Notes under the pieces: generated by a model | The model's database searches: none | What the model was told of the DNA's origin: nothing | What the model saw: only the letters and a program-made list of their open reading frames with translations | Shown: positions 32,083 to 63,919 of the stretch, piece by piece | How the letters are laid out: every line of letters begins with the position of its first letter | Position numbering within the stretch: position 1 is the first letter of the stretch | DNA from: Chytriomyces cf. hyalinus JEL632 | Taxonomy: Eukaryota; Chytridiomycota; Chytridiomycetes; Chytridiales; Chytriomycetaceae | Assembly (NCBI GenBank): GCA_025435555.1 | Contig: JAIWWG010000071.1 | Span: 1 to 64,000 of the forward strand | Direction: 5' to 3' | Length of the DNA stretch: 64,000 nucleotides | Made by a program: the position numbers and the translations under genes

Positions 32083-35000
32083 TTATTTTGAAGCATGGGA
32101 GAAAGGGTAGTCGCTTCCTCTTGTACAATTGGGGTAAAACTTGCAAACCTGGGTGCAATCGCACCTTGTCAGCTGCTGTACAAACAAAATACCCAACTAT
32201 AAACTTACCCGTCTCTCGTTACCATCATCAAATGCTCCTGATACGGTGGGATGAAAAATAAGAGCGAAGGGATTCAATCCCTTCAAACGCTGGCCATTGT
32301 CATATGATGATGAGACGTCCGACGGCACCCACTCCGCGGCATGAGGGCTTAAACGCATACCGTACGAACGATTGGACCAAGAGCTGGTAAGTGGGCTTGC
32401 GTATGGGTTAAACGCTTCAGCAGGGTCACCCCCCAAAAACACAGGGCTTTACGCTCCGGCAGAAAGGTGAGGTGAATCAGGGATAAACGCTGCAGAAAAT
32501 AAAAGGAGAGTTAGGTTCAGTTGGAAAAAGCACACTAGTCGCGTTTTTGACTGCCGCCTTATCTTTACCAGTTGACTGCGGGTGGAACTTGGGAGTAAAA
32601 GGATTTAATCCCTTCAACCTTGTGCCGTTGTCATTTTTTGATGAGAAGCTTGAAGGCTTCCACTCCGCGGCGTACGGGTTCAAGCGCGTCACCTTTGGTT
32701 CGGCGGCCACAAAAAACTCGCAAGCCAGTGGGTTGAGGCCCGTCCTTGGCGGGCACGACTCGCGAATGGCTTCAGCAGCTAAAGACGTTTCTTCGCGAGA
32801 ATGACTGGCACTATGAACCGATTCCGCGACCATACTCTCTGTATGACTTTGAGTTTGAGAAGCCATCGCGCAAGCTTTTTCTGCGGATTTCATAAGTTGC
32901 GCCAATTTCACTGAATGCAGAGACGCTTACCTAATTTTGTTGCCGCCGTCTTGGAAGCCACAACATTATCGTTCGATGACAAGGGCTGTTCCACAATGGC
33001 ATCTGACTTCACTGGCACTGAAGTCGTTTGAGCGACTGGCTTCGTTTCTGCCTTTTCGATTTTGGCAACGCATTTCTGCTCCTTCTTCTCCTCCTTCTTC
33101 TCCTCCTTCTTCTCCTCCTTCTTCTCCTCCTTCTTCTCCTCTCTCTTCGCCTCTCTCTTCGCCTCTCTCTTCGCCTCTCTCTTCGCCTCTCTCTTCGCCT
33201 CTCTCTTCGCCTCTCTCTTCGCCTCTCTCTTCGCCTCTCTCTTCGCCTCTCTCTTCGCCTCAATCTTCACCTCAATCTTCGGCTCTATCTTCGCCTCTTT
33301 TTTCTCGTCTTTTTTCTTGTCTTTCTCCTTTTCAGCTGTCTTTTCAACTGGGTTCGAATGGCAAGCAGCAACGGGTACTTGGATCGCGCTTTTTGAAGTA
33401 ACGGACTCGGAAGCTAAAAAGCGTGCGCATCATAACAATCAGACAAACGCAACCAATGCATATTGCCAATCAAATAAAATTACCGAATGATATCTGACGA
33501 ATACGCAGTGGCCCGGTCGCTAACATATCAGTAATGTAAATCTGGTTGATTTCAAAATCTGAACTGCTCAGTGCAAACAGGGGTGCATCCGTTGATTTCA
33601 CGGGAACGATAGAAGAAATTGGTTCAGACGTTATGGCTGGTACGGCAGCAGGAGATGAGGGAGCTGGAGAAATGAAGTACAATTTAAGTTCCTTGAGCGC
33701 CTTAGAAAAAGAAATTACTCACTGTTTTCTGGCAGCACATTGTCATGCTGTAAAGCGGCGCAATCTTCCAAACATTCTGCAGCTCATGTTCATCCAAAGA
33801 GAATAACGTGGAAGAAACACCGGCCGCTTGATGGGGAACAGCAGCTGGTACCACGTCTTCTTTCACTCCGGTGCCAACGGTTTCAGGATGTAGCTTTGAC
33901 GACTCCGTAGAACTCAGAACATACTTCCAGGCATTCTGGGTATCGTTCCAATCCAAGGAGTACAGTGGCTCAGCTCCCGATTCCGACTGATGCGTAGCAC
34001 TGGTGTCAAGTGTCGAGGGAACAGACACGGGTTTGGCCATTTTTGTTTCAGGTGCCACGATAGACTTCTCTGTCACCACTTGTCACAAGAAAAGACTTTA
34101 GAGGCACAGCTTAATTTGAACGCTGATCAAAACAAACACACCGAAAGGAATCTGGCGAATTCCAAAAGGGCCAGAAATGATTGGCCGAGTTGTTTCGCTT
34201 TCGTGGCGACTGAGAGTAAACCATTCCTCCTGCGGCGCAGATTTTGGTGCGGCGGCTTTGATCACCACTACTTCTGTCGACACGGCCTTTTGCTGGACGT
34301 CCACGAACGCTGCATAAAAGAAATCTGAGAACAAATTCTCATCGGTTGTATGTGCTGCTACAGAGTCCATACCATACGCGATTTGACGAATTTGGTTTGG
34401 ACCAGACGCGCAAACTTCGTGTTTGTCCAGGGAGTAGGAAACTCCTTGCGGTTGCACGGTTTCAAGGTTTTGATGGACTTGAATAACTTTCTTTATGGTG
34501 ATTTCTTTCATTGCTGCTTTGGAAGTTGTGCTACGCAGGGGAGTTGGAGTGATGAATGAGGCAGCTGATATGCAAGATTTGAGTCAGAAACAACATGATG
34601 ATTTCATAGAGCACACGAAATGACTATGTACCATATGGGATTTGTCGGATTTGAGACGGGCCGGAAGTTGTGCGAAGGGTGTGAATCTTCAAAAATTCAG
34701 CCACGTCATGCTGATCCAGTGAATAAAGACCGTCCACGGAGCCATTACAAGATTGAGTGGCCGAAACTTCAGATAAGTTATCCTGGTGCGCTGTATTGTT
34801 TTGGTATGGGTGATTGTTAGTGATTTGACAATTCGCGGGTAGCAAACACTCACGTTGCTGCATCAGGCCAGAAGTGCGAGGGTTTATGTAGCACTCACAT
34901 TTTTGCTCAGCGTTGGTTGGTGGGAGGGAGTACCGTTGGGTGTGTTGGAATGTCGGTTGTGGAACGTAGATGGGGACTTCCGAAATTAGGGTCTTCTTGA

Positions 35001-35247
35001 GGCAGTTGACAGAATCATTGCAGAGAAATACAGGAAGTGGTAGGTAAACGGCCTCGGCGTCTTTTAACCATCGCAGCACTTGCGATTCTTGGCGCTTGTT
35101 GTCGGCAGAAGGCCTTCTCTTCGAGTTTCCTCGGGCAGCCTTCTTTGGGGTCTTTGTGGGGGACACAAAACGCACCGCAGCTGTAGCCACGAGGGCGACG
35201 GCGGACAGAGCGACTACAAGGACGAGTGCATTTTGGAGCTTGTACAT
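32083..35247 (-). pseudogene. Copy A: membrane-anchored PAM2/CCCH protein, apparently decaying
   Basis: Paralogue of copy B (38298-41485), collinear exon by exon. ATG 35247 gives a membrane anchor (ALVLVVALSAVALVATAAV) and a basic stretch. Exons with the repeat core follow: SGPSQIRQIPYG, SGPNQIRQIAYG, SGPFGIRQIPFG and TGPLRIRQISFG. Next come the Lys/Glu/Arg/Ala minisatellite and an exon with PAM2-like motifs LNPLACEFFV (32737-32708), LNPYAAEWKP (32683-32654) and LNPFTPKFHP (32608-32579). Lesions relative to B: a 1-nt deletion near 33737 just before a splice donor; an in-frame TAA at 32449-32451 where B reads TCT; and Cys to Tyr (codon 32107-32109) in the zinc finger. PAM2-like motifs also remain beyond the stop (LSPHAAEWVP 32352-32323, LNPFALIFHP 32277-32248). 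It could still make a truncated protein with three PAM2 motifs. Function unknown. Confidence 0.65.
33078..33265. repeat. 12-bp minisatellite (KREA / KKEE coding) in copy A
   Basis: About ten copies of the 12-mer TCTCTCTTCGCC follow several copies of TTCTCCTCC-type units on the plus strand. On the minus strand they are in frame and encode (KREA)n followed by (KKEE)n. The matching tract of copy B has only three TCTTCGC units. Confidence 0.9.
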
Positions 35248-37099: not shown

Positions 37100-37762
37100 C
37101 GAACAACGGGAAAAACCCCCGTGCAAATGGGTTGAGTCCTTTAGGCGACGACGTCGGCACGAACTCCGGCGCCAGAGGGTTCAACCTCGACGTGAACCCT
37201 TGCGGTTGCCGAACGGGCCGGCTTTGTACTGCATCCTCGACCGCTCGGGTTCTTGGTCAGCGTGTTGGTAATTGGCAGTTTGCCTGAAGAAAAAGACGGG
37301 TCAGTCAGGCGGGATTTGCATCAATGGGCACGGACAGAACTGAAACCACACTTACCCTCTTGTTTGAGAACTGCTTCTCTCGCGTGCCAGATCAGCGTAC
37401 TTGCAACGAGGGCCAGCTCGATAAAGCGTCGCTTCGCAATGAGCTGGTGAAAATGTTCATGGAAACCATTTGAACTATTCGAGATTCAAAGAGGCAGCAG
37501 TGAGTACAAAGCACCATCACAGCGCGGCAATAGAAGAACGTATGTACCTTCTATTCGAGGGAAGGTGTTTGTGCTGCACGAAAAGAGCCGTGACAACCAG
37601 GGACAACTCAGTGAGGCATGAGCTGCCAGTGAGCTGCTGAAACCTTACATGCATACCATAACTGAGCTGTGTAAGATTTAAAGACGTTGGAGTGAGTACG
37701 ATGCACAACATATACCGCGTGCCGTAGAAGACGGTAGATACCTTTTGTTGTTATGTTTTTGT
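37100..37762 (-). pseudogene. Small PAM2-containing locus with two repeat-type exons (fragmentary)
   Basis: Two exon-like units on the minus strand encode FQQLTGSSCLTELSLVVTAL (about 37665-37550) and FHQLIAKRRFIELALVAST (about 37455-37370). Both are flanked by similar intron-like sequences (GTACATACGTTCTTCT... and a CTTTGTACTCACTGCTGCCTC core). Downstream, an open frame carries two PAM2 motifs: LNPLAPEFVP (37184-37155), a near-perfect consensus, and LNPFARGFFP (37136-37107). I could not join the PAM2 frame to the upstream units without a stop. The locus is therefore either a gene with an exon I have missed or a relic. The first unit is repeated in inverted orientation near 48 kb. Confidence 0.4.
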
Positions 37763-38297: not shown

Positions 38298-41200
38298 TCA
38301 TTGTGAAACATGGGAGTAAGGGCATTCACTTCCTCTTGTACAATTGGGGTAAAACTTGCAAACCTGGGTGTATTAAAGTGACAGAAACCCCAATTGTCAG
38401 CTGCCATACAAAAAAAATGCATCCAACACTAAACATACCCGTGAACTTTTCTCGGCAGATAAAACGGTAGGAGAACTGCCTCTCTTCTTTGGCACGATGG
38501 CGTCCACTGTAGGGATTGCAACCTTCTCGATCACAGAAACAGACCCTTTCTTTTTATCGACTTTGAAATAGTCCGCCAGCGTGGGTCCAGTGGGTACGGC
38601 AGCCAAATCTTTACTATTCCGCTTCCCTTTTCCCTTGGCCTTGTTGTTTTTCGTTCCATTGTTCCCAGTGCGACCACCAGCCTGGCTCATATCACCGTTC
38701 CCTCCTCCCGATGTGGTTCGCGCGACATTTGGATACTGCGGCAGGTCGTTTACGCTTCCGTAGCCATCGTCAAACGCGCCAAGTTGGAAAGTGGGGGCGA
38801 AAGGATTTAATCCCTTCATACTCATGCCATTTTCGTTTCCGGACGCGAAGCTTGAAGGCTCCCACACAGCGGCATTCGGGTTTAAACGCGACTCAGGCGG
38901 TGAGTGCATGCCGTGCGAACGATTGGAACGAGAATTGGTGAGTGGGTTTGCGTATGGGTTAAACACTTCAGCAGGATCACCCCCCAAAAACACAGGGCTA
39001 GACGATCCGGCAGAAAGGTCAGGTGAAACAGGGATAAACACTGCAGGAAAAAAAAGAGAGTTAGGTTCAGCTGGAAAAAGTACGCAAGTCGCGTTTTTCA
39101 GCCGCGTCCTCAATACCATTGGACGAATGACTGGCACTATGAACCGGCTCCGGCACCAGACGCTCTGCATGACTTTGAGTTTGAGAAGCCATCGCGCAAG
39201 CTTTTTCTGCGGATTTCATAAGTTGCGCCAATTTCACTGAATGCAGAGAGGCTTACCTAATTTTGTTGCCGCCGTCTTGGAAGCCACAACATTATCGGTC
39301 GATGACAAGGGCTGTTCCACAATGGCATCTGACTTCACTGGCACTGAAGTCGTTTGAGCGACTGGCTTCGTTTCTGCCTTTTCGATTTTGGCAACGCATT
39401 TCTGCTCCTTCTTCTCCTCCTTCTTCTCCTCTCTCTTCGCCTCTCTCTTCGCCTCTCTCTTCGCCTCAATCTTCACCTCAATCTTCGGCTCTTTTTTCTC
39501 GTCTTTCTTCTTTTCAGCCGTCTTTTCAACTGAGTTCGGATTGCAAGCAGCAACGGGTACTTGGATCGCGCTTTTTGAAGTAACTGGCTCGGAAGCTAAA
39601 ATGCGTGCGCATCATAACAATCAGACAAACGCAACCAATGCATATTGCCAATCAAATAAAATTACCGAATGATATCTGACGAATACCCAGTGGCCCGGTC
39701 GCTAACATATCAGTAATGTAAATCTGGCTGATTTCAAAATCTGATCTGCTCAGTGCAAATAAGGATGCATCCGTTGATTTCACGGGAACGATGGATGAAA
39801 CTGGTTGAGACTTTATGGCTGGCACGGCAGCAGGAGATGCGAGAGCTGGAGAAATGAAGTGCCCTTTAAGTTCCTTGAACGCCTTCGAAAAGGATATTAC
39901 TCACTGTTTTCTGGCAGCAAAATTGCCATGCTGTACAGTGGTGCAATCTTCCAAACATTCTGCACCTCATGTTCATCCAAAGAGAATAACGTGGAAGAAA
40001 CACCGGCCGCTTGATGGGGCACAGCAGCTGGGACCACGGCTTCTTTCACTCCGGTGCCAACGGTTTCAGGATGTTGCTTTGACGACTCCGTAGAACTCAG
40101 AACATACTTCCAGGCATTCTGGGTCTCGTTCCAATCCAAGGAGTACAGTGGCTCAGCTCCCGATTCCGACTGATGCGTAGCACTGGTGTCAAGGGGAACA
40201 GACACGGGTTTGGCCATTTTTGTTTCAGGTGCCAGGATAGAGTTCTCTGCCACTATTTGTAACAAGAAAAGACTTTAGAGGCACAGCTTAATTTGAACAC
40301 TGATCAAAACAAACACACCGAAAGGAATCTGGCGAATTCCAAAAGGGCCAGAAATGATTGGCCGAGTTGTTTCGCTTTCGTGGCGACTGAGAGTAAACCG
40401 TTCCTCCTGCGGCGCAGATTTTGGTGCGGCGGCTTTGATCACCACTGCTTCTGTCGACACGGCCTTTTGCTGGACGTCCACGAACGCTGCATAAAAGAAA
40501 TCTGAGAACAAATTCTCATCGGTTGTATGTGCTGCTACAGAGTCCATACCATACGCGATTTGGCGAACTTGGTTGGGACCGGACGCGAAACGAATATCCG
40601 TGAACTTCGAAATCTCGCAAACTTCGTGTTTGTCCAGGGAGTAGGAAACTCCTTGCGGTTGCACGGTTTCAAGTTTCTGATTGACTTGGATATCGTTTTT
40701 TGGGGTGATTGTTCTGATTGCTGCTGTTTTTGCCGTGGTGTTATGCAAGGGAGTTGGAGTGGTGACTGCGGCAGCTATGCAAGGTTTGAGTCAGAAGCAG
40801 CATGAGGGTCTCAGAGAGCAAACGAAAGAACATGTACCGTAAGGGATTTCCCGGACTTGAGACGGGCCGAAAGTTGTGTGAAGGGTGTGAATCTTTGAAA
40901 ATTCAGCCACGTCATGTCGATCCAGTGAATACAGAATATTCACTGATTCCCTACTAGATTGGATGGCCGGCAATTCAGATAAGGTTCCGTGGTATGCTGT
41001 GTTCCGGTAAGAAAATAGTTGTGAGGGATTGTCAGTGATCAGGACAATTCAAGGGGGGCGAAAGATTTACGTTGTTGCTTCGCTCCCGCCACGGATCCAG
41101 AAATAAGAGCGTTTGTAATGGAAGTTGCTGTTTCATCGGCACCGGTTTGAGGAAGGGCGAACCCTTGGGTATGTTGAAAGATAGGCACCGGAATGTAGAT

Positions 41201-41485
41201 GGGAATTTCTGAGATGGGGTTTTTCTTGAAGGACGTGATTGGATCACTACGTATAAACACAGGGCGTGGTAAATATATGATCTCTGTGGCCTCTGCAGGT
41301 GGTAACGCTTGCGATTCTTGCGGAAGAGCTCGCGTTTTTCTGTTTGAAGACCTTCTCTTCGAGTTTCTTCTATCACCCTTCTTTGGGGCTTTCGCGGGAG
41401 AAGTGAAATGGGCTGCAGCAGTGGCCACGATTGCAGCAGCTGAAAGCGCAACAGCAAACACAAGGGCTGATTGGAACTTGGACAT
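38298..41485 (-). CDS. Copy B: membrane-anchored protein with exon repeats, PAM2 motifs and a CCCH zinc finger
   Basis: Not a family I recognise. Ten exons give ~863 residues: 41485-41071, 40996-40838, 40774-40550, 40486-40319, 40252-39905, 39845-39666, 39595-39257, 39206-39117, 39040-38439, 38363-38298. Features in order: an uncleaved-looking N-terminal TM helix (ALVFAVALSAAAIVATAAA) followed by KAPKKGDRRNSKRR, so the rest probably faces the cytosol; repeats with YSLD/FALS...GPxxIRQIxxG (FGPSQVREIPYG, SGPNQVRQIAYG, SGPFGIRQIPFG, TGPLGIRQISFG); a Lys/Glu-rich minisatellite tract; PAM2-like LNPNAAVWEP (38885-38856) and LNPFAPTFQL (38810-38781) plus a weak FNPYANPLTN; a basic KNNKAKGKGKRNSK stretch; and a C-terminal CKFYPNCTRGSECPYSH finger (CX5CX5CX3H). 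PAM2 binds the MLLE domain of PABP. The finger spacing is that of Nab2/ZC3H14 poly(A)-binding fingers. Role as a membrane tether for poly(A) mRNPs is inference. Confidence 0.75.
39405..39476. repeat. Short version of the KREA/KKEE minisatellite in copy B
   Basis: Three TCTTCGC-type 12-bp units plus two or three TTCTCC units, in frame on the minus strand (KREAKREAKREE-KKEE). The same position in copy A is expanded to about ten units. Confidence 0.85.
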
Positions 41486-44577: not shown

Positions 44578-45694
44578 CATCAACCGCACCATCCTTGTCT
44601 CGCGGAGTTCCTCTGTCTGCTGCTCAAGCACTGCTGACGCATCCAGCAGTTGGATCTGGAAGGAGTCACAACAGTTAATCATGAACCATGACAGCGAGCG
44701 TTATTACCTCAGGTATCGGATATTTCTTGGGCATTTGGCCAGGCAGCGGCGGCAAATCCACAAGGGTCCCACATTTGGGCAGCCCTCCAGACCACTCGCC
44801 TTGATACATTTGTCGCTTGGTTTTGTATATAAACTTTCCTGGGCCCTCTTTCTGATCGCCGTACCACATGCCTTCGTATCGATCGCCGTTTGCTAAATCG
44901 TCAGTTTTTGTTCAGCTTCCCTTGTTGCCAGTGATCAAGGAAAACACGCTCACGTGACAGCAAGATCCCCTGCCCATGGCGCATCTCATGGTGCCATTCC
45001 CCGTCATACACGGCACCGTCAATGTAGTTCATGCGCCCCCAGCCCTCCTTCTGGTCGTTGGCCCAGAGTCCGTCGTACCAGCTGCCGTCCTCGTAAAAGT
45101 AGGTGCCCTTGCCTTCGCGCTTGTCGCGACGCCACTCACCTGCGTACACCTTGCGAAGGAGAAGCGCGTCGTCGCGTGCGTTGTGGTGCAGCGGCTTCGC
45201 TTTGTTGGCGAGTTCCTTGTCCTGCGCGCTTGTGACAATGTCCGCGACGAGGTTGCTTGTTCGAGAAGGAGATTCCTTGTGGGAGTCGCTGGGCTTGGAT
45301 CCATTGGACATAATCGGCGTGGCAAATGTGCCAAACCCGTCGCGCATGTCGTTGGCCCACTCTCCTTCGTAGATGGATCCTGTGCCGTTGTAGAAGTAGG
45401 TGCCGTTTCCTGCGAGCGAGATCGAAAGAGAGAGAGAGAGAGAGTTGTACGAGAGAGCGAGCCACGGTGTCAGTCATGAACGCCAGCGAGAGAAGGAGTG
45501 AAAGCTTGAACCAACGACATCAGCCCACCTTGCTTCTTGTTGCCTGCCCACTCGCCCAGATATCTGTCGCCGTTGGTCATGTAAACAGTGGCGTGTGGAC
45601 CGTTCTTGCGGCTCAGCGCATCGCGTTGCTGCCACAAGGGCGTCTTGGTCACGTACGCATGCCGGGCAATGGTTGTGATTGCGTTGTGTGACAT
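44578..45694 (-). CDS. MORN3: MORN repeat protein, MORN3-like
   Basis: MORN3 is a sperm/flagellum-associated protein in animals and is kept in flagellated protists. ATG 45694 gives TKTPLWQQRDALSRKNG, matching the MORN3 N-terminal block. MORN repeats follow: VYMTNGDRYLGEWAGNKKQG, YEGEWANDMRDGFGTF, YAGEWRRDKREGKGTYFY, YDGLWANDQKEGWGRM, YDGEWHHEMRHGQGI, YEGMWYGDQKEGPGKF and YQGEWSGGLPKCGTL. The end has PKKYPIPE/IQLLDASAVLEQQTEEL, like the ...FPIPEIKLLDP... tail of MORN3. Introns lie near 45412-45530, 44895-44960 and 44665-44710. The true C-terminus is uncertain: an in-frame open stretch continues past a GTAAGA donor at 44577 toward the DOMON pseudogene. A (GA)n tract in the first intron (about 45425-45445) is notable. 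Confidence 0.8.
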
Positions 45695-47929: not shown

Positions 47930-48977
47930 AAAACAAAAGGTATCTACCGTCTTCTACGGCACGCGGTATATGTTGTGCATCGTACTCACTCCAACCTCTT
48001 TAAATCTTACACAGCTCAGTCTCGGTATGCATGAAAGGTTTCAGCAGCTCACTGGCAGCTCATGCCTCACTGAGTTCTCCCTGGTTGTCACGGCTCTTAT
48101 CGTGCAGCACAAACACCTCTTATCGACAAGAAATGTACATACCGTTCTTCTCTTGCCACGCTGTGATGGTGCTTCGTACTCACTGCAACCTTTTTGAATC
48201 TTGAGTAGCACAACCATGGTCTCCATGAAACTTTTCGAACAACTGGCAGCCAGTCGCCGCCTTCTTGAAATTGCCAGATTCGGGGCCGACAGAACAAAGG
48301 AAAAACAAGTCTCGAAACACAAAACCTCAAAGCGAACAAAAGGTTCATACCGTTCTTAGATTGCCACGCTGTGATGGTGCTTTGTACTCACTGCTGCCTC
48401 TTTGAATATTGAGTTGCTCAACTATGGTCTCTTTGAAATTATTTCAGCAACTGGCAGCAGGCAGCCGTCTTGTCGAGGAGTCCATGCGAGCAAGACAAAA
48501 GCTTCTAGTTAAGCAGGGTAAGTGTGGCTTAAGTTCTGTGCGGGCCTATGATTGGAAATCCCTCTTCTTACCTGAACACGTCTTCTTCCACAGGGAAGCC
48601 GACTGGCACCAAACCAAGGAGGAAGGAGACCTACCCCATCGAACAGGCTGTCCAAGCCCAGGTGCTTCGGCAGCTGCCATCTTGTCGCATTGGGATTTGC
48701 AACCGTCGGAGTGCTGTCCATCTTTGCAGGAGCAGCAATCACACGCTTCTTTATCCGACCCAATTTCAACTTAACTGCTCTAGTGCACGGTATTTTGCAT
48801 CTTTTTTTTCCATCTCTTGCCTTCCCACCGGGGCTTTCACTCAACTTTGACTATCGCGACATGAAGTCGTACTCAACTATCAAGCGCGTTGGCCTTCCTA
48901 TTCAATTGACGGCGAACTGCTACTGTTGCGTGCATCTGAGGGCGAATGCCTTATTCCCTCGAGGGCTTGCATTTTGA
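47930..48977 (+). repeat. Tandem exon-like repeat units (inverted relative to 37.4-37.76 kb), partly coding-like
   Basis: Three successive units of about 170 nt. Each has an intron-like lead (CTACGGCACGCGG... or TTGCCACGCTGTGATGGTGC, then GTACTCACT) and a coding-like stretch: FQQLTGSSCLTEFSLVVTAL (48030-48115), MVSMKLFEQLAASRRLLEIA (48213-48272) and MVSLKLFQQLAAGSRLVEES (48423-48482). Unit 1 is nearly identical, inverted, to the unit at 37560-37745. Downstream, an open stretch encodes a hydrophobic segment (LGFATVGVLSIFAGAAITRF, about 48690). Frames of successive units do not join cleanly, so this is either a small multi-exon gene with different splice sites or a decayed one. Confidence 0.45.
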
Positions 48978-50220: not shown

Positions 50221-51927
50221 TCACACCTTGAAAGAATCCGCAGATGCTGCTTCCTCAACAACATGCTGCGATGCACCCAGCACACGCTCACCAAAATACC
50301 CAAACCCAACCACAAGCACAACAACAATCCACACCCAGAATCCAACAACAATCCCAACAGAAGAACCATACAAACTCAACCCCAATTGCATTACAACCAG
50401 TGCCAACAATCCACTCAGTCGTCCCAACCACGCATGCAAGTGATCCCACCAAGGCACAGACACCCTTTCGACATCGAATAACGCGTTAATCACGAACCCA
50501 AGAATTACTTGCGCAGGGTAAACACCCAGTGCAAGAACTGCACCCGTAACAGCGTGGCTCGACTTTGTAAACCGCGCGACACCGTCCCCCAAATTCACCT
50601 CAACAGCAACCAACCCGGCGACCGTGAGCGCGCCAGTTCCAAACAGCATCAAACACCAGTGAATGGCGTACCAGGATTTCTCCCAACGCTGCTTCATGTA
50701 CCGAGCAACAAAGATACCAGCAAAGGGTAGCACGCCCCACGCGATAAACATGACGAGTGAGTGGGCAAAGATGAGTGTTGACTGTGTAATGGCTTGCACG
50801 TCGCCGGTGGTTTCCAGACCGAGTTGTAACACGTCCAGGGTAAAGGCGCCGAAGGAAGAATGTTGTGGGAATGGGGATGATGGGTTGGATGGAGATGTTG
50901 GTGCGCTGTCTGAGACGCCGTACATGAATTGGGACGGTCCCGTAGTAGATACGAGTTTTGCAGAGATGGGAACTGTGAACGTGAACGATACGGCTGTATT
51001 TGCCGGAAGTGAAAGAGATTTTGGAGTTTCAATGAGCGTAAAGACTGATGCAGAGTCAGTAGTGGGCATCACGTGACCAGAAGAACTGCGTTGAGATACT
51101 ACTGGAGCATTGCCGGCGACATTGTTCCAGCCAACAAACATGGTGCTACCTGCCATCAAGCTACCGGTCCCAATCCCAACCCACCCTTTTAGTGAACTGT
51201 ACACTGTGAAGGTTATCAATTCGGAAGACCTTGACGCGGAGACGCAGAAAGAGCCTTTCGAGTCGGCGCAATATTTGCTGGAGGCTTGTTGAGCACTGGC
51301 AGCGACAGTTGCGGTAGCTAAAGCAGTGGCAGTGCCCGTGGCCGTGCCAGTGGCTCTGGTTGATGTTCGGATCGCTGAAGCGGAGCTAGCAGATGATGCA
51401 GTAGGTGCCTCGGCGTCCGCAGCGCGTGAGGAAGATGGTTCAGAGGAGGGTAGACTTGGAGCCGCAAGGACAGGCGCTTGAGCAACTTGCAGAAACCCAG
51501 TTCCGCGCTCGTTATGGAATCCGAAATCGCCACTTGCGGAGCCAGCTGGTCTGGAAGCACCGACGGCCCAAATATATCCGAAACCGGAACCAAGACCATC
51601 GACCTGTATGGTGCATTCCAATCCGCCACGAGATACGGATGCAGGTGTGGAGACGGTGGAAACGGCGGAGTTAAAGACGGGCATATAATGTCCGCCTACG
51701 GAACGTTGTGAGCATGCACAGCCACCGAAGCAGACAAACAGATTCCCGGCGTCACGCATGCTTGAACCGCCGATGCCGATAGCGACGTATCCATCCATAC
51801 CCGACTGCATAGTCAGGAGGGACGATGATCCGCTTTGTGTGACTGAGACGCAGAAACTACCTGAGCAGGAGGTTGATTGTGCACTGACGCTCGCGATGAG
51901 CATAGTGACTAACAGGAGGACGAGCAT
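50221..51927 (-). CDS. Double-DOMON cytochrome b561 protein (CYBDOM type), intronless
   Basis: 568 residues in one exon, the only intronless member here. Signal peptide (MLVLLLVTMLIASVSAQS). First DOMON is about residues 18-155 (GSFCVSVTQSG, GYVAIGIGGSSMRDAG, FGFHNERGTGF). An Ala/Thr/Ser linker follows, with (TGTA)-type repeats. Second DOMON is about 215-370 (GSFCVSASRSSELITFTVYS, GWVGIGTGSLMAGSTMFVGW, FPQHSSFGAFTLDV). The C-terminal cytochrome b561 domain has histidines on successive helices (FAHSLVMF, WYAIHWCLM, SSHAVTGAV, WWDHLHAWLGR). The known CYBDOM class passes electrons across the plasma membrane to DOMON-bound heme and extracellular acceptors such as Fe(III). The acceptor here is unknown. 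Confidence 0.9.
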   Translation of the reverse strand: MLVLLLVTMLIASVSAQSTSCSGSFCVSVTQSGSSSLLTMQSGMDGYVAIGIGGSSMRDAGNLFVCFGGCACSQRSVGGHYMPVFNSAVSTVSTPASVSRGGLECTIQVDGLGSGFGYIWAVGASRPAGSASGDFGFHNERGTGFLQVAQAPVLAAPSLPSSEPSSSRAADAEAPTASSASSASAIRTSTRATGTATGTATALATATVAASAQQASSKYCADSKGSFCVSASRSSELITFTVYSSLKGWVGIGTGSLMAGSTMFVGWNNVAGNAPVVSQRSSSGHVMPTTDSASVFTLIETPKSLSLPANTAVSFTFTVPISAKLVSTTGPSQFMYGVSDSAPTSPSNPSSPFPQHSSFGAFTLDVLQLGLETTGDVQAITQSTLIFAHSLVMFIAWGVLPFAGIFVARYMKQRWEKSWYAIHWCLMLFGTGALTVAGLVAVEVNLGDGVARFTKSSHAVTGAVLALGVYPAQVILGFVINALFDVERVSVPWWDHLHAWLGRLSGLLALVVMQLGLSLYGSSVGIVVGFWVWIVVVLVVGFGYFGERVLGASQHVVEEAASADSFKV

Positions 51928-52680
51928 TCTCTGTACTCTCGGGGATGGGTTTACTTGTTTGCGTTGGAAATAGACGAGAGTCTCTGGACACTACGAGACA
52001 GATGGGGCTCAAGAACAGATGGCTCAGGCGGCAGTTTACGAATCTCTTTCTCTCTTTTTGTAGGGTGCCGATCCAAGGGGTTTGAAATCCAACTAGTGAG
52101 ATTAAACGTGATTTAGAGTACACTCACTTGAACCAGTAGCACTAGCAGCAGCATCCAGCGAGCGAGTGCGTGTCTGAAGAGAGCACGCTACGAAACAGGC
52201 TAATTGCACACTGGGCGTGTGCAGCTGCAGCAGCATCGCATCGCATCGCATCAGAGCATGGCATGCGGTGTTTGACAGCAGAGATTATAAATCTTTTTTT
52301 AAAAATATTTATTTGTGTGATAAGCACAAAAAATTGTCACTTGCTGGGTCCAGTGCCATCCATTGTTTGGAATGACTTTTTTGCGAATCAAACAGCGGCC
52401 GCTCCCAGTCAGTCAGTCTCGCTGTCTCCGCACTCACACTCACTCACTCTCGCACGCACGCATCCAATCACGTGTCCCATCCATCCATCATTTCATTCGC
52501 ACTCTGCCCATCCCATCCCCCCCCTAAATATCACTGCAATCAGCCGCTTTCTTATTGTGATGAGCGATATATTAATATTTATCGATTCTATTTATCGGTT
52601 TTATTTATTTATTTATCGGTTTTATTTATCGACGTTATTTATCGGTTTATTTAAATACATCCACGCTCCGCTCGCTGATA
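51928..52680. other. Intergenic region with simple repeats
   Basis: 753 bp between divergent starts (DOMON-b561, minus; KDM3-like, plus). It contains a CATCG pentamer run (about 52222-52250), CA/CT-rich CACTCACTC repeats (about 52430-52455) and several TTTATTTATCGG-like units (about 52575-52645) directly upstream of the KDM3-like gene. No gene supported. Confidence 0.6.
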
Positions 52681-55532: not shown

Positions 55533-57581
55533 TCAGACTCTTTGCTCGCCACTCGGCAGATCTGATCCTGAATGACCTGGGTGAGATGCAGTTCCTTGTT
55601 CGTCACCCTCCACATGATCATCCAAGAGCCTGTTATGAACCGCAGGCCCAGACTCATTCAGAATTCCCGTCTTTACATGATGTACCGCACCATTCAACCA
55701 ATACTCGCCCACAAACCCACCCACACCACCAACAACCAACACAATAAACACCCAAAACAACGCAACAACCAAACTACTCGCCTCAAACAACGTCAGCCCC
55801 AACTGCACATTCACAACCGCAAGCAAAACCGCCACACGACCCGTCCACCAATGCATTCGGTCCCACCACGGCACACATTCGCGGTCAGAATTAAAAAGCC
55901 CGTTTGAAATGAACCCAAACGCTACTTGCATGGGATAAATTGCAAAACAGAGTGTGGCACCCAAAATACCGTGTGGGGTTGTGATGAAGCGCGGTTTTCC
56001 AGGTGTTAGATTGACTTCCACGCATACGAGGGCTGTGGCGATGCAGGCTGAGACTCCAAATAACATGATACCGGTGTGGGTGAGGTACCAAGCGTGACCG
56101 AGACGAAATTTGAGGTATCGGGCACTGAGGGGAGGAAAAGGTCTTTCAGGTTTTAGGGACCCTTTGCATGTTCAAAAACTGCAACTCACACAAAGATTGC
56201 TATCGGTGGCAAAACACACCACCCCAAAAACATGAAAATCCCATGGAGCAGCAACAAGTCGACCGCCGGAGTGGATCCTGCACCTTCTCCAGAGCTTTGT
56301 CCCAATTTGCTCACGTCAACACTAAATTGGCCTCTAAACTCATGTTTTCGAAACGACGATGATGGAACTGATGGATTCCCTGGGGCACTGTTCGAGCCGG
56401 CAAACATAAATTCGGTGGGAGAAGTTGTGCTCGCGATTCCAGACGATATTGGAACGGTAAAGGCAAACGATATTTCAATGGAGGATGGTAGATTGATTCC
56501 GGCTGGAAGCGGGACCGCTGTGAAAATCGTAGCGTTGACGGGTGTTGGAAGATTGTACTCGGAGGTAGTTCTCTGTGAAATCACTGCTTGCTCGCCGTTG
56601 ATCCAGCCGATAAACATACGCGACCCAGCCATCACTTGACCTTTTTTTTTTTTTTTTTGGTGAAGTCAGTCAACAATTGACAAATCGGGGCCGACAGAGG
56701 ATGAGGACAACACTTACCGGTTCCAAAGCCAACCCACCCAGTCAACGAAGAGTAGGCGACAAAGGTAACAGTAGATGCTACTTCATTGCGAATCGAAACC
56801 AGGCAAAAGGAGTTGGAAGCGTCTCTGCAGAAGGTACTGATGGACGTTGAACTGGTAGCAGGAATGTTGACGACTTTTTCTCCAGCCGGATTGTCTCCAG
56901 GACTTCCCTTCAAGTCCAATTTAAAATAACCCTTCTGCTGGTGGTATCCAAATGACGAATTTGGGTTTTCCAGATCGGATGGTGGTGCATCAGATGATGC
57001 GTAGATAAAGTCAGACATTATGTATGGTGCTGATGCAGGGATGGTGAATGCGTAGGCCGTGCGTGTATTCGGTAGGAGTTTGAATGATGCTGGAATAGAT
57101 GTGTTCGTGAACGTGGGCTCCATCGGGCGTGGCAGCGAATAGGAAGACGCGTTGCGCTGCGAAATGACTGAAAAGGAGCGACAAGTCCATCCAACGAACA
57201 TTGTTGAAGACAGCATTGAAGGGCCTGTTTTGGATTTAATTTTGAAGACGAGAGAATTTAACGAGATGCCCACTAAAAGATACAACAGTGCTTGTCACCC
57301 ATCGCAACAGAGACCCAACCCTGTGCTGTTGACGTCACAACGAACGTGAGATTTCTTGAACCAGAGTCCGGATACACCGACACGCAGAAGTCACCGGTGG
57401 GTGCACAGAAGGATGCGGTGGGTGCTGCCGCAGACAGCAGATGAGAGTTGAGGCTTGAGAGAGGGGCTTGGGAATGCCAGGCCTGTGGCATGGCCAGACC
57501 GTATGTGTCCTCGTTGGAGCCGTAGTTTGCGGAAAACACGGCGGAGGCCGAGAGTGCAAGGAAGGTCGTCGATGCTTTCAT
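55533..57581 (-). CDS. Double-DOMON cytochrome b561 protein, multi-exon
   Basis: ATG 57581: signal peptide MKASTTFLALSASAVFSA. First DOMON: GDFCVSVYPDSGSRNLTF and WVSVAMG across an intron (about 57215-57290) to SSTMFVGWTCRSFSVIS and FGYHQQKGYFKLDL. Second DOMON: STFCRDASNSFCLVSIRNE and GWVGFGTG. A ~80-nt intron (56642-56718) contains an 18-T/A homopolymer next to the acceptor; the exon continues with QVMAGSRMFIGWINGEQ and RKHEFRGQFSVDVSKLG. After an intron near 56125-56190 the b561 helices follow: LLLLHGIFMFLGWCVLPP, AWYLTHTGIMLFGVSAC, TPHGILGATLCFAIYPMQ and MHWWTGRVAVLLAVVN, each with its conserved His. It shares a 390-bp divergent promoter region with the gene at 57972. The first DOMON is shorter than in its relatives, so its first-exon join is less certain. 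Confidence 0.85.
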
Positions 57582-57971: not shown

Positions 57972-59878
57972 ATGCGGACGATGCTTCTTCTGTCTGTGCT
58001 CTTTGCCATGCTCGGAATGGCGACCTGCCAGCGCACTGGGCGGGTGTGCAATCGTGCCTCAAACATGTGTATGCAGGTTGATGTGGAGGCTGGCAGCAAC
58101 ACTGCCATCGTCAGTGTGTGGGCCTCTGCCTCGGGCTGGGCTGGAGTGGGTTTCGGCGTTTCTGGCATGACTGGAAACGCACCAGCCGTAGTTGGATGGA
58201 AGAACGGCGCGGATGTCGTCCTGTCTAGCCGCCTTTTGAACGGGGAGGTGATGCCACTGCCGGCCAAGGACAGTGCCGTGGCCGTGCCACTTCCTGCATC
58301 AGCGGCGGCGAGTGCTGGAGCCTCTGCGCTTGCTTTTGCATTCGAAATGCCCGCCAGCACATTTTCTGGGACTAGGTGACAGAGTGCCTGAACCTGTTCA
58401 ACAAAGCTTGGACTTTTAACCAACATGAACTTGTTCACAATCAGTCTGCGGTGCGCGTGGGCCTATTCTCCGTCGGCGCCCACGAATCCTTCATCCCAAA
58501 CTTCGGCGTTCGCTCAGCATTCCTCGCAAGGCTCTTTCATCGTGCCCTTGACTCTGCGTGACGCAGCCGCTGCAATTTCTCCAACATCTTCATCTTTCGT
58601 ATCTCCAACTCCTTTAAGCTCAATCGCCATCAATTCCACCCAGGCCGTCTCTCAGTTTTGCGTGGATTCATCGCTCACTTTTTGTGCAATCGCGTTGAGA
58701 GACTCTATCAAACAAACAACGAGCTTTACACTATACTCATCTTACACTGGCTGGTTTGCCATCGGAACCGGAACCCAAATGGCTGGAAGTACCATGTTTG
58801 TCGCCTGGCAAAATTCGCAAAACAAAATGGTGGTTTCTCAACGAACTGCTTCTGGACATACGGAACCTCGCCCCGCGTCTTCGTCCCAAAGCTTTACCCT
58901 TGAGAGTGCACCTCCTGCGGCCTTGTCGATTCCATCATCCGCCAAAATGGTTGTCACATTTGTGGTCCCGTCCTCCAGCAACATTATCAGTGCAGCTGGT
59001 GCCAGCAACTTCATTTATGGCGTTTCGAATCAAAAACCAACCGACCCAGACTCTGCAACTTCCTCCTTTTCACAGCACACAGAAGAGGGCTCGTTTGTAC
59101 TGGACGTGTCAAAATTAGGTGCCGTTTCATCTGGTGCGGCTGCGGCCAGCAACAAGGACGGACTGCGTCTTGGCCATGGGATCACAATGTTCCTCGCATG
59201 GGGTGTACTGCCGTTTGGCTTGATTTTCATTGCGCGATACATGAAATCGAAAATGGGCCATGCGTGGTATTTGACGCACATGGGCGGCTTCATTGTTGGA
59301 GTTGGTGGCTTGACTATTGTGGGACTGATTCTGATTGAATTGCAAGTGGCAGACGGAGTCGACCGATTTTTAACAAGCACGCATGGCAAGATTGGAGTGG
59401 CCATGTGTTTTGCACTGATGCCTGTTCAGTGGGTGCTGGGTTTCGTGAGCAATGCTTTGTTTCGATTGGATCGTCCTACGGTGCCTTGGTGGGATCAGAT
59501 GCACTGGTGGACTGGAAGAGCGCTCGTTATTTTGTGAGTCTCCTTTTTTTTATGTGATTTCTTCAACGTGTCCTAACACTCGCTACTTTCTCGCGCAGAG
59601 CGATTGCGCAGATTCATTTAGGCTTGGAGGAATATGACTCGAGCACCGGAGTGTTTGTCGCCTACTGGATCTGGATCGGTGTTGTGTTGTTGGGACTCTT
59701 TGGGTTTTTCGGCGAGTTCAAACTTGGAGGTGTTGTACACCACATTAAGGGGGACGATGGCCAAAACCAAAATGCTCCAGTGAATGAGGCTGGGGATGTA
59801 ACCATCACAGACCAGTACCTTTCAGCGACTTCTGGAAGCAACAATCATGAACTCAGAGAGCGCCGCGCTGCAAAGTGA
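57972..59878 (+). CDS. Double-DOMON cytochrome b561 protein
   Basis: Exon 1 (57972-58374): signal peptide MRTMLLLSVLFAMLGMATCQ and first DOMON (NMCMQVDVEAGSNTAIVSV, AGVGFGVSGMTGNAPAVVGW). A 62-nt intron leads to exon 2 (58437-59534): AWAYSPSAPTNPSS, FAQHSSQGSFIVPL (first DOMON end), then the second DOMON (SQFCVDSSLTFCAIALRDS, GWFAIGTGTQMAGSTMFVAW, FSQHTEEGSFVLDVSKLG). b561 helices: LRLGHGITMFLAWGVLPFGL, AWYLTHMGGFIVGVGG, TSTHGKIGVAMCFALMPVQ and MHWWTGRALVIL. Exon 3 (59600-59878) adds the last helices (IAQIHLGLEEYDSSTGVFVA, WIGVVLLGLFGFFGEF) and a cytosolic tail. It is the best-preserved member and lacks the long linker seen at 50.2 and 61.7 kb. Confidence 0.9.
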
Positions 59879-61728: not shown

Positions 61729-63919
61729 TCATCTTCTCATACGCGGCCACGTCTGAGAACGATCCAGAAGCGAGTAAGAGCCGGATACATCCGTAATCTC
61801 ATCGCTGTGCTCAGATACAAAGTTGCTGTTGCGCAACTCGTTCAGCTTGGCAGTCTCAGCAGCAGATGCATCCACTTTCACTCCCTCTTCGATAACCCAA
61901 CCGTCTTCCTCCGCCGCTAGTCCAGTGTAGGTTACCATCTGAGTAGAGTCATACTGCTTCTCAGTTGCAATGTGATGTGAAGGGCCGCCCAGGTACCATT
62001 CTCCCACCACACCAAATAGAACAACAGACACTAGAAATGTCCATGCCCAAAATGCCACAATAACCCATAGCGCCGCATCATGCGCAGTCAAACCAAGCTG
62101 AATTTGCGCAAACCCACTGCGAAAGTACAGTTAAGTTGTCTGTCGTTCACCAACAGCAAAAAAAAAAAGGTATCGAAAGGTCTTACAGCATCACTAAAAT
62201 TCGTCCAGTCCACCAATGAACCTTGTCCCACCAGGGAATCGTCTTGCGCTCGGTTTTGAAGAACGCATTACTCAGGAAACCCAGTAGACACTGCAATGGC
62301 AGCAACACAAAACAAATGGCAATGCCTAAAAAACCATGCACCCCCGCCTCAATGAACCGATTCATCCCTGATTCGACCGTCAACTCAATGAAAACAAGTC
62401 CAGCCACAGTCAGCCCGCAAACTCCATACAACATGCCAGCCAAATGGATCCAGTACCACTTTCGTCCGAGTCGGTGTTTGAGATACCGCGCAACAAATAT
62501 GAAAATGAATGGAAAGACGCCCCACGCAAAGAACATGGCCAATCCATGAGCTAATTTCAAAGTTTTTGAACTTTCGCTATCCACGCCGCTCGCACCACCC
62601 GAATTTACAGTATTCAGTTTTGACACATCAAGTTTGAATACAGCAAAGGCATTGTGCTGCACAATTGTGGCGTTGGGAAAATTCGGGTTTACAGGCGGCG
62701 TACTTGACACCCCGAAAATCAAAGGGGTTGACGCCAGTGTCGAAAAAATGCCACTTTTTGCTGTCACGCTGAAGGTCACTTGCATTTGCGCGTCCTTTGG
62801 AACAATTACGGATGTTGGAGGGCTGCTTTCGACTGTAAACAATGGAGTGCTTGACTCGAAGAGTGTTGGGGTATTGTGGCCTGAAGCAGTGCGTTGCGAC
62901 ATAATCATTCCCCCAGAATTCGATTGCCAGGCGATAAACATGTTGCTGCCGGACATGATCGAACCTGTTCCAATGCCCATCCAGCCAGAGAAAGAAGTCC
63001 ACATTGTGATTGCGACCATTCCTACGCGGTCATCTCGCAGAAGCGTTACGCAAAATGTGTTGGATTGATCTTGACAGAAAGTACTTTTAGCTTGGGAAGA
63101 GGCTGGCCCTTGTCCAATACCACTGTTGGGCAGACTGGAAGAAGTGCTCGCGCTAGTCTTAGAGGCGGATGTAGTCGTGATTTTGGATGCTGAGGACGTC
63201 GCTGACGATGCGGCAAGCGTTGTACTCCCCAGTGACGCAGCAAGAGTCCCTGTTGCGTTATTTACAGTATTTCCCCCCGCGGCTGAAGTGGCTGATGCGC
63301 GTGACGATGATAATGAGGCCACTCGTGAAGCTGATGTCGAAAATCGCAGTGTGAATGAACCCTTGTCATCATGTACACCAAATGCAGCTGAAGGTGAGTC
63401 TAGTATTTGAGGTGGAGTATTTGAAGTCGCATACACGCACGGTATGCTGCGAATATTTGTGGGAGATTGGATGAGGAACAACGAAAAGCGGAAAAAGAGC
63501 CAATTGTATTTCATGATATATTCTCACCTTGAGGCATCAAAGAGCGAGGACGGAACGCGCACCGAGTACGATGTAAGAGCGCCGCTTAGCTCTAGCACGG
63601 TCGCAGATCTCGGTTGTGGATTGGCATCCAGACCAAACTCAGGCATCACGTGGGTACCGAGCGTCCGGAATGAGGCGACTGAGCCGTTTTCGGGCCCGGT
63701 CCATCCAACAATGCACGGAACGTTGCCGCCCATGACAAGAGTTCCGAATGCAATGGCGGCCCAGCCGCCCTCGGTTGATTGGACAGTCACAACGGCATCG
63801 GCCGAGTCGGCGACGATCTCGACATTGACGCAGAAGTTGCGCGAGCTGGTGCAGAAGGACGTGCTGCGGCCTTGTGCATGCACGATGGTTGCCAGCAACA
63901 GAGACAATGCAAGGATCAT
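61729..63919 (-). CDS. Double-DOMON cytochrome b561 protein with long Ser/Thr/Ala linker
   Basis: Exon 1 (63919-63530): signal peptide MILALSLLLATIVHAQ and first DOMON (RNFCVNVEIVADSADAVVTV, WAAIAFGTLVMGGNVPCIV). Exon 2 (about 63470-62188): YATSNTPPQILDSPSAAFG, VHDDKGSFTLRF, then a ~75-residue Ser/Thr/Ala-rich linker probably O-glycosylated. The second DOMON follows (STFCQDQSNTFCVTLLRDD, WMGIGTGSIMSGSNMFIAW, VQHNAFAVFKLDVSKL). b561 helices: LKLAHGLAMFFAWGVFPFIF, KWYWIHLAGMLYGVCG, AGVHGFLGIAICFVLLPLQ and VHWWTGRILVML. Exon 3 (62120-61729) gives the final helices (FAQIQLGLTAHDAALWVIVA, WTFLVSVVLFGVVGEWYLGG) and tail. Exon structure matches the gene at 57972. Confidence 0.88.

Follow-up and report, generated by a model that had tools for sequence, protein, structure and literature searches.

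Introduction

Of the ways in which PABP-bound mRNA is attached to a membrane in fungi, the Upa1/Rrm4 endosome system is the best described, and Rrm4-type endosomal machinery is reported to extend to Chytridiomycota (PMC12852828). In Ustilago maydis, Upa1 and Upa2 are adaptors that connect PABP-bound mRNA to the membrane through PAM2 motifs, four of which are found in Upa2; mRNA transport continued when all four were mutated, a caution for any role assigned to such motifs in gene A, the locus described here (PMC9249222; PMC12852828). A PAM2-based link of the same kind is predicted for gene A, whereas its route to the membrane would differ: Upa1 is described as reaching endosomes by a FYVE finger and Upa2 by a GWW motif, and gene A has a hydrophobic N-terminus together with a CCCH finger. 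The ER mRNA receptor p180/RRBP1, compared here by its description, shares with the predicted gene A protein a very short N-terminus, one anchor, a basic region and a long cytosolic tail, but its RNA contact is made by a Lys-rich region and it terminates in a coiled coil, and neither PAM2 nor a finger is mentioned in the passages compared (PMC3362647). By analogy, gene A would resemble Upa1/Upa2 and p180 in function, and Unkempt, Makorin-1 and LARP4 in motif make-up.

LARP4 and LARP4B carry a La-type RNA-binding module and, like Unkempt and Makorin-1, are not known to have a membrane anchor. LARP4/LARP4B share with gene A a PAM2 motif with Trp in place of Phe, theirs being bound by MLLE (PMC7356810). 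Unkempt (PMC11009413) and Makorin-1 (PMC6805484; PMC7001992) share the combination of CCCH and PAM2, which in those proteins contacts PABP, but differ in having finger clusters and, in Makorin, a RING domain. A protein uniting anchor, PAM2 and CCCH finger, of which the original prediction knew no described example, is not named in the titles and abstract openings among the matches listed from the open-licence literature.

Gene model and organization of gene A

Gene A lies on the minus strand of the 64,000-nucleotide stretch of DNA analysed here (the window), with its ATG at 41485 and the last base of its stop codon at 38298 (Table 1). The ten-exon model of the original prediction was recovered with exactly the same ends, and the features it had placed in one predicted protein, namely an anchor, a basic stretch, PAM2-like motifs and a CX5CX5CX3H finger, are all found in this model. 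Its introns are 43-75 nt long with GT-AG borders in 9/9 cases; introns 1-8 are in phase 1 and intron 9 in phase 0, so that exons 2 to 8 can be duplicated or lost with the frame intact. The splicing is predicted, the exon joins being those of the model. An in-frame stop lies 18 nt upstream of the ATG, and DNA similarity to gene A starts 4 nt (copy B) and 8 nt (copy C) before the ATG in two paralogs described below; this onset just ahead of the ATG supports the assigned start. A block further upstream is common to B and C and absent in A.

A Pfam scan of five ORFs with exons 1, 3-6 and 9 gave no match over cut-off, FYVE included, and the sub-threshold matches belonged to two unrelated families. 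AlphaFold2 modelling of exon 3 with four more repeat rows was of low confidence (mean pLDDT 49.3, pTM 0.11). The tail is best read as long and largely disordered. Among the neighbours in the window are a cluster of genes matching a cellobiose-dehydrogenase-type cytochrome (CDH-cyt) and/or cytochrome b561, at 50224-51990 (-), 55536-56171 (-), 56635-57294 (-), 58392-59534 (+) and 62186-63523 (-), and a MORN-repeat frame at 44904-45473 (-).

Table 1. Features of gene A and of neighbouring family members in the window.
Feature	Position	Strand	Basis or remarks
Gene A, ten exons, 874 aa (predicted)	38298..41485	-	Nine GT-AG introns; start backed by the point where B and C become similar
Hydrophobic segment, aa 7-25, candidate signal anchor	41411..41467	-	Mean Kyte-Doolittle 2.32 (19 residues); segment shared with B, C and C182 remnant
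Basic stretch behind anchor, aa 32-52	41330..41392	-	Conserved between A and C
Exons 2-6, repeats of about 35 aa, core YSLDxHEV...GPxxxRQIPYG	39666..40996	-	Translation and comparison; each exon bounded by phase 1 on either side
Exon 7, Lys/Glu-rich charged region	39257..39595	-	Translation
Degenerate PAM2-like FNPYANPL, aa 679	38940..38963	-	Aromatic residue missing; FNPYASPL in copy B
PAM2, tryptophan type, LNPNAAVWEP, aa 705	38856..38885	-	LNPYAAEWEP in C
PAM2 LNPFAPTFQL, aa 730	38781..38810	-	LNPFAPTFQP in C
CCCH finger, CX5CX5CX3H, aa 855, CKFYPNCTRGSECPYSH	38310..38360	-	zf-CCCH_2 28.1 bits, cut-off 25.8
Copy B, decaying paralog	32083..35247	-	Phase lost at exon 5 end; in-frame stop in exon 9; third finger Cys to Tyr; PAM2-like motifs multiplied
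Copy E, short PAM2 family, helix exon and LNPLAPEFVP...LNPFARGFFP	37101..37460	-	Possibly a remnant

N-terminal anchor and topology

The net charge of the flanks is +2 before the hydrophobic run and +4 to +5 behind it in 4/4 readable N-termini (A, B, C and the remnant on C182). By the charge-difference rule, this pattern favours a cytosolic tail for gene A. The mean Wimley-White octanol value of the segment is 0.09-0.38, and the flank of 15 residues contains 2-5 basic ones. These values would be compatible with a signal-anchor rule for the mitochondrial outer membrane, given as hydrophobicity below 0.4 with three or more basic residues behind (PMC4010795), with the qualification that one signal-peptide-like control (n=1, chosen by eye within the window) overlaps in hydrophobicity, at 0.29-0.42 on the same scale with no basic flank residues, so that anchor and signal peptide are separated by the basic flank alone. 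With its modest hydrophobicity and basic flank, the anchor might sit either in the ER or in the outer membrane of mitochondria.

The main rival reading, which we consider rather unlikely, is that the segment is a cleaved signal peptide, the gene A protein being lumenal or secreted and its PAM2 motifs active elsewhere or functionless. The hydrophobic core is Ala-rich and ends in Ala-x-Ala, followed by His or Arg, and could on that account be cleaved; the gene also belongs to a multi-copy family with some decaying copies, and in host-associated fungi expanded, repeat-rich families of this sort are frequent among the proteins that are secreted. Against secretion, the 19-residue hydrophobic run is followed by a basic flank in 4/4 copies, whereas the flank of the single control is neutral (n=1), and a PABP ligand joined to a CCCH finger would make sense in the cytosol.

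PAM2 motifs and the PABP partner

Two good PAM2 motifs and a degenerate third are located in exon 9 of gene A. The two agree with the published pattern LNxxAxx[F/W] (PMC7356810), and in copy C there are five PAM2-like motifs, of which one has Val in the place of Ala. The same MLLE pocket is reported to accept Trp as well as Phe (PMC7356810; PMC9249222), the Phe being let in by an MLLE Gly (PMC9249222). In 20,000 shuffles of the gene A protein, LNPxAxx[FW] occurred at a mean of 0.00055 per protein and never twice in one shuffle; the motifs of gene A exceed chance. A search of the PDB sequences with its PAM2 pair gave 0 matches.

A PABP with an MLLE domain is present in the same organism, the domain scoring 99.4 bits at each of two genomic places (cut-off 27). 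The MLLE at locus L005 forms the end of a Gln/Pro/Met/Gly-rich PABP-like frame, and within the PDB set it comes nearest to PABP1 chains (E 2.1e-22 for 3kur). It retains both MLGE, whose Gly we take to be the one that admits Phe, and the KVTGMLLE helix (KxTGMLLE). The two loci, L005 and L006, have a DNA identity of 87.7% across 1993 nt and represent gene duplicates or diverged haplotypes.

A strict DNA pattern for LNPxAxx[FW]xP matched the genome 27 times, against 5 for the reversed control. By position, 17/27 fall in the gene A type family or in a separate short family described below, and these comprise 12 distinct sequences (a single sequence is common to C27, C61, C89 and C113, and one occurs three times on C163). 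Two loci were read among the other ten, LNPFARSFVP in a Ser-rich frame on C199 and LNPLAREWTP on C1. Near-identical PAM2-bearing stretches are also seen on separate small contigs (L059 5409-5954 and L060 2726-3271; L057 4127-4420 and L058 3879-4178), being recent duplicates or separate haplotypes.

Since A has two motifs, C has five of PAM2-like form and the short family has pairs, the protein might be conceived as a PABP competitor whose PAM2 arrays fill MLLE and damp translation or alter deadenylation, the membrane setting only the place. Paip2 acts on PABP in this manner, and chytrid zoospores are described as translationally inactive (PMC8887899). We regard this as improbable; it leaves the finger unexplained.

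CCCH finger

The spacing CX5CX4-6CX3H that characterizes Nab2/ZC3H14 fingers is present in gene A, and the finger pattern appeared at a mean of 0.00005 when the protein was shuffled 20,000 times; the zf-CCCH_2 family has four matching places in the genome. Among PDB sequences (E up to 10) the finger gave 19 matches, led by KIAA1064 and followed by Nab2 and RBM22, with CPSF4 chains included. This order points to a finger of the RNA-binding kind in gene A and does not, at the level of sequence, indicate poly(A) specificity. Nab2 and ZC3H14 carry several such fingers in tandem, and two stretches were aligned in 3zj1, whereas A and C have a single finger each. The two routes to poly(A)/PABP envisaged by the original prediction are both plausible as candidates, but the finger is RNA-type, not specifically poly(A), and solitary.

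A multi-copy family and a separate short family

Going beyond the original prediction, we find that gene A is a member of a multi-copy family with decaying copies, and that a separate short PAM2 family exists beside it. The gene A family is small and fast-changing. Searches of the genome with its exons gave copy B in the window, copy C on contig C163, the remnant D on C58 and an N-terminal remnant on C182. Copy C, in a model built by similarity, has 649 aa in seven exons and is apparently intact, with an anchor (MSRLHSALVFVIALSAVAIVATAAARF), a basic stretch, the five PAM2-like motifs and a finger (CKFYPNCTRGRECPYSH); its last exon junction and finger are the same as in A. Copy B retains the anchor, and its lost finger cysteine and lost frame count against the reading of gene A that we favour, a membrane-tethered PABP adaptor. 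The identity between A and B is uneven by block (92.5% over 386 nt, 82.5% over 2115 nt and 77% in three others), which suggests gene conversion between the two; conversion may also have reached the 3' end of A and C.

In the short family, a different helix exon (MVSMKxFxQLxAxRxLIE...) is joined to PAM2 pairs, e.g. LNPFAAEFVP; 13 matches with E up to 0.1 were found on C182, C27, C61, C212, C89, C113, C156, C162 and C176 (E 0.0996 for C176). The remnant D on C58 combines a short-type helix exon with PAM2 motifs and a partial finger. In three copies of the short family the helix has a Kyte-Doolittle value of 1.19-1.67, weaker than in gene A, and its flank charges are reversed relative to gene A, so that this family lends no support to a common topology. 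Two places in the window, 48216-48272 and 48424-48477 (+), resemble its N-terminal exon (MVSMKLFEQLAASRRLLEI and MVSLKLFQQLAAGSRLVE).

Weak matches of exon 1 to C237 (E 0.039) and C208 (E 0.0475) were dropped, a local search giving E 0.18 for C237 and none at E up to 1 for C208. Among viral contigs, exon 1 gave 9 pattern stretches with 0 confirmed, and among prokaryotic genome contigs exon 3 gave 106 with 0 confirmed, sets that say little on fungi.

Selection between A and C

Over the 459 alignable codons (unalignable parts excluded), A and C differ with pN 0.213, pS 0.475 and dN/dS 0.33. By part, dN/dS is 0.30 in exon 1 (0.14 for aa 1-60, 59 codons), 0.31 in the repeats, 0.31 in exon 5/6, 0.28 in the PAM2 pair and 0.07 in the finger alone (19 codons). 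Differences at codon positions 1/2/3 number 102/94/184, a third-position excess with a chi-square p of 3.1e-9. The two PAM2 motifs of A and the last two of the five in C are identical at 10/10 key residues (L, N, P, A, W or F) and differ at 15/35 other positions. The C-terminal segment has a dN/dS of 0.78, which counts against the favoured reading, and its differences (11/6/11) are no more frequent at the third position than at the first. Introns 1-4 are 71-82% identical between A and C and exons 1-4 68-80% (window 40253-41070 versus L021 4866-5670); that introns are as alike as exons is odd under ordinary coding constraint and also tells against the favoured reading. Duplication and decay together argue against a core housekeeping role. 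That this is a fast-changing family lacking any conserved role in the cell, maintained through duplication and gene conversion and with PAM2-like letters spread along with the repeat unit, would fit copies B, D and the C182 remnant, the A/B blocks of unequal identity and the A-C introns, but is very unlikely in view of the A-C dN/dS of 0.33 with its third-position excess and the consensus PAM2 letters retained in two families.

Proposed role of gene A and its relatives

It is proposed, with a probability of about one half, that gene A encodes a PABP adaptor which is tethered to a membrane, faces the cytosol and docks poly(A) mRNPs. The product would cross the membrane once and have a very short N-terminus, a single uncleaved N-terminal anchor, a basic collar and a long cytosolic tail whose PAM2 motifs would bind the MLLE of the fungus's own PABP. 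Several PAM2 motifs could hold more than one PABP per poly(A) tail, the C-terminal CCCH finger may touch RNA, and polyadenylated mRNPs would in this way be docked on the membrane. Support for the adaptor reading comes from the open gene model, the motifs themselves, their retention in the diverged paralog C and the fitting MLLE in the genome.

The genome has matches to IFT46 and chitin synthase 1 (18 exon-wise for the latter), which indicate a zoosporic fungus and bear out the zoosporic setting of the original prediction. Zoospores of the chytrid Rhizoclosmatium are described as containing dormant ribosomes with maternal mRNA, in a distinct ribosome cluster that takes up about a fifth of the cell body (PMC8887899). 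A wider interpretation, which we offer tentatively and regard as doubtful, is that these proteins are lineage-specific integral-membrane mRNP receptors, combining multivalent PAM2-MLLE contacts with an RNA-type finger, that have expanded in a zoosporic fungus and perhaps hold maternal mRNA or ribosomes at a membrane within the zoospore; mRNA storage in zoospores by gene A is speculation. If the proposal is true, a built-in anchor with PAM2 arrays would be a simpler design than the Upa1/Rrm4 system. The intact members of the family are, from their predicted sequences, candidate membrane docks for mRNAs, and as we know of no named organiser of the zoospore cluster of ribosomes and maternal mRNA, the gene A family would provide direct candidates for it.
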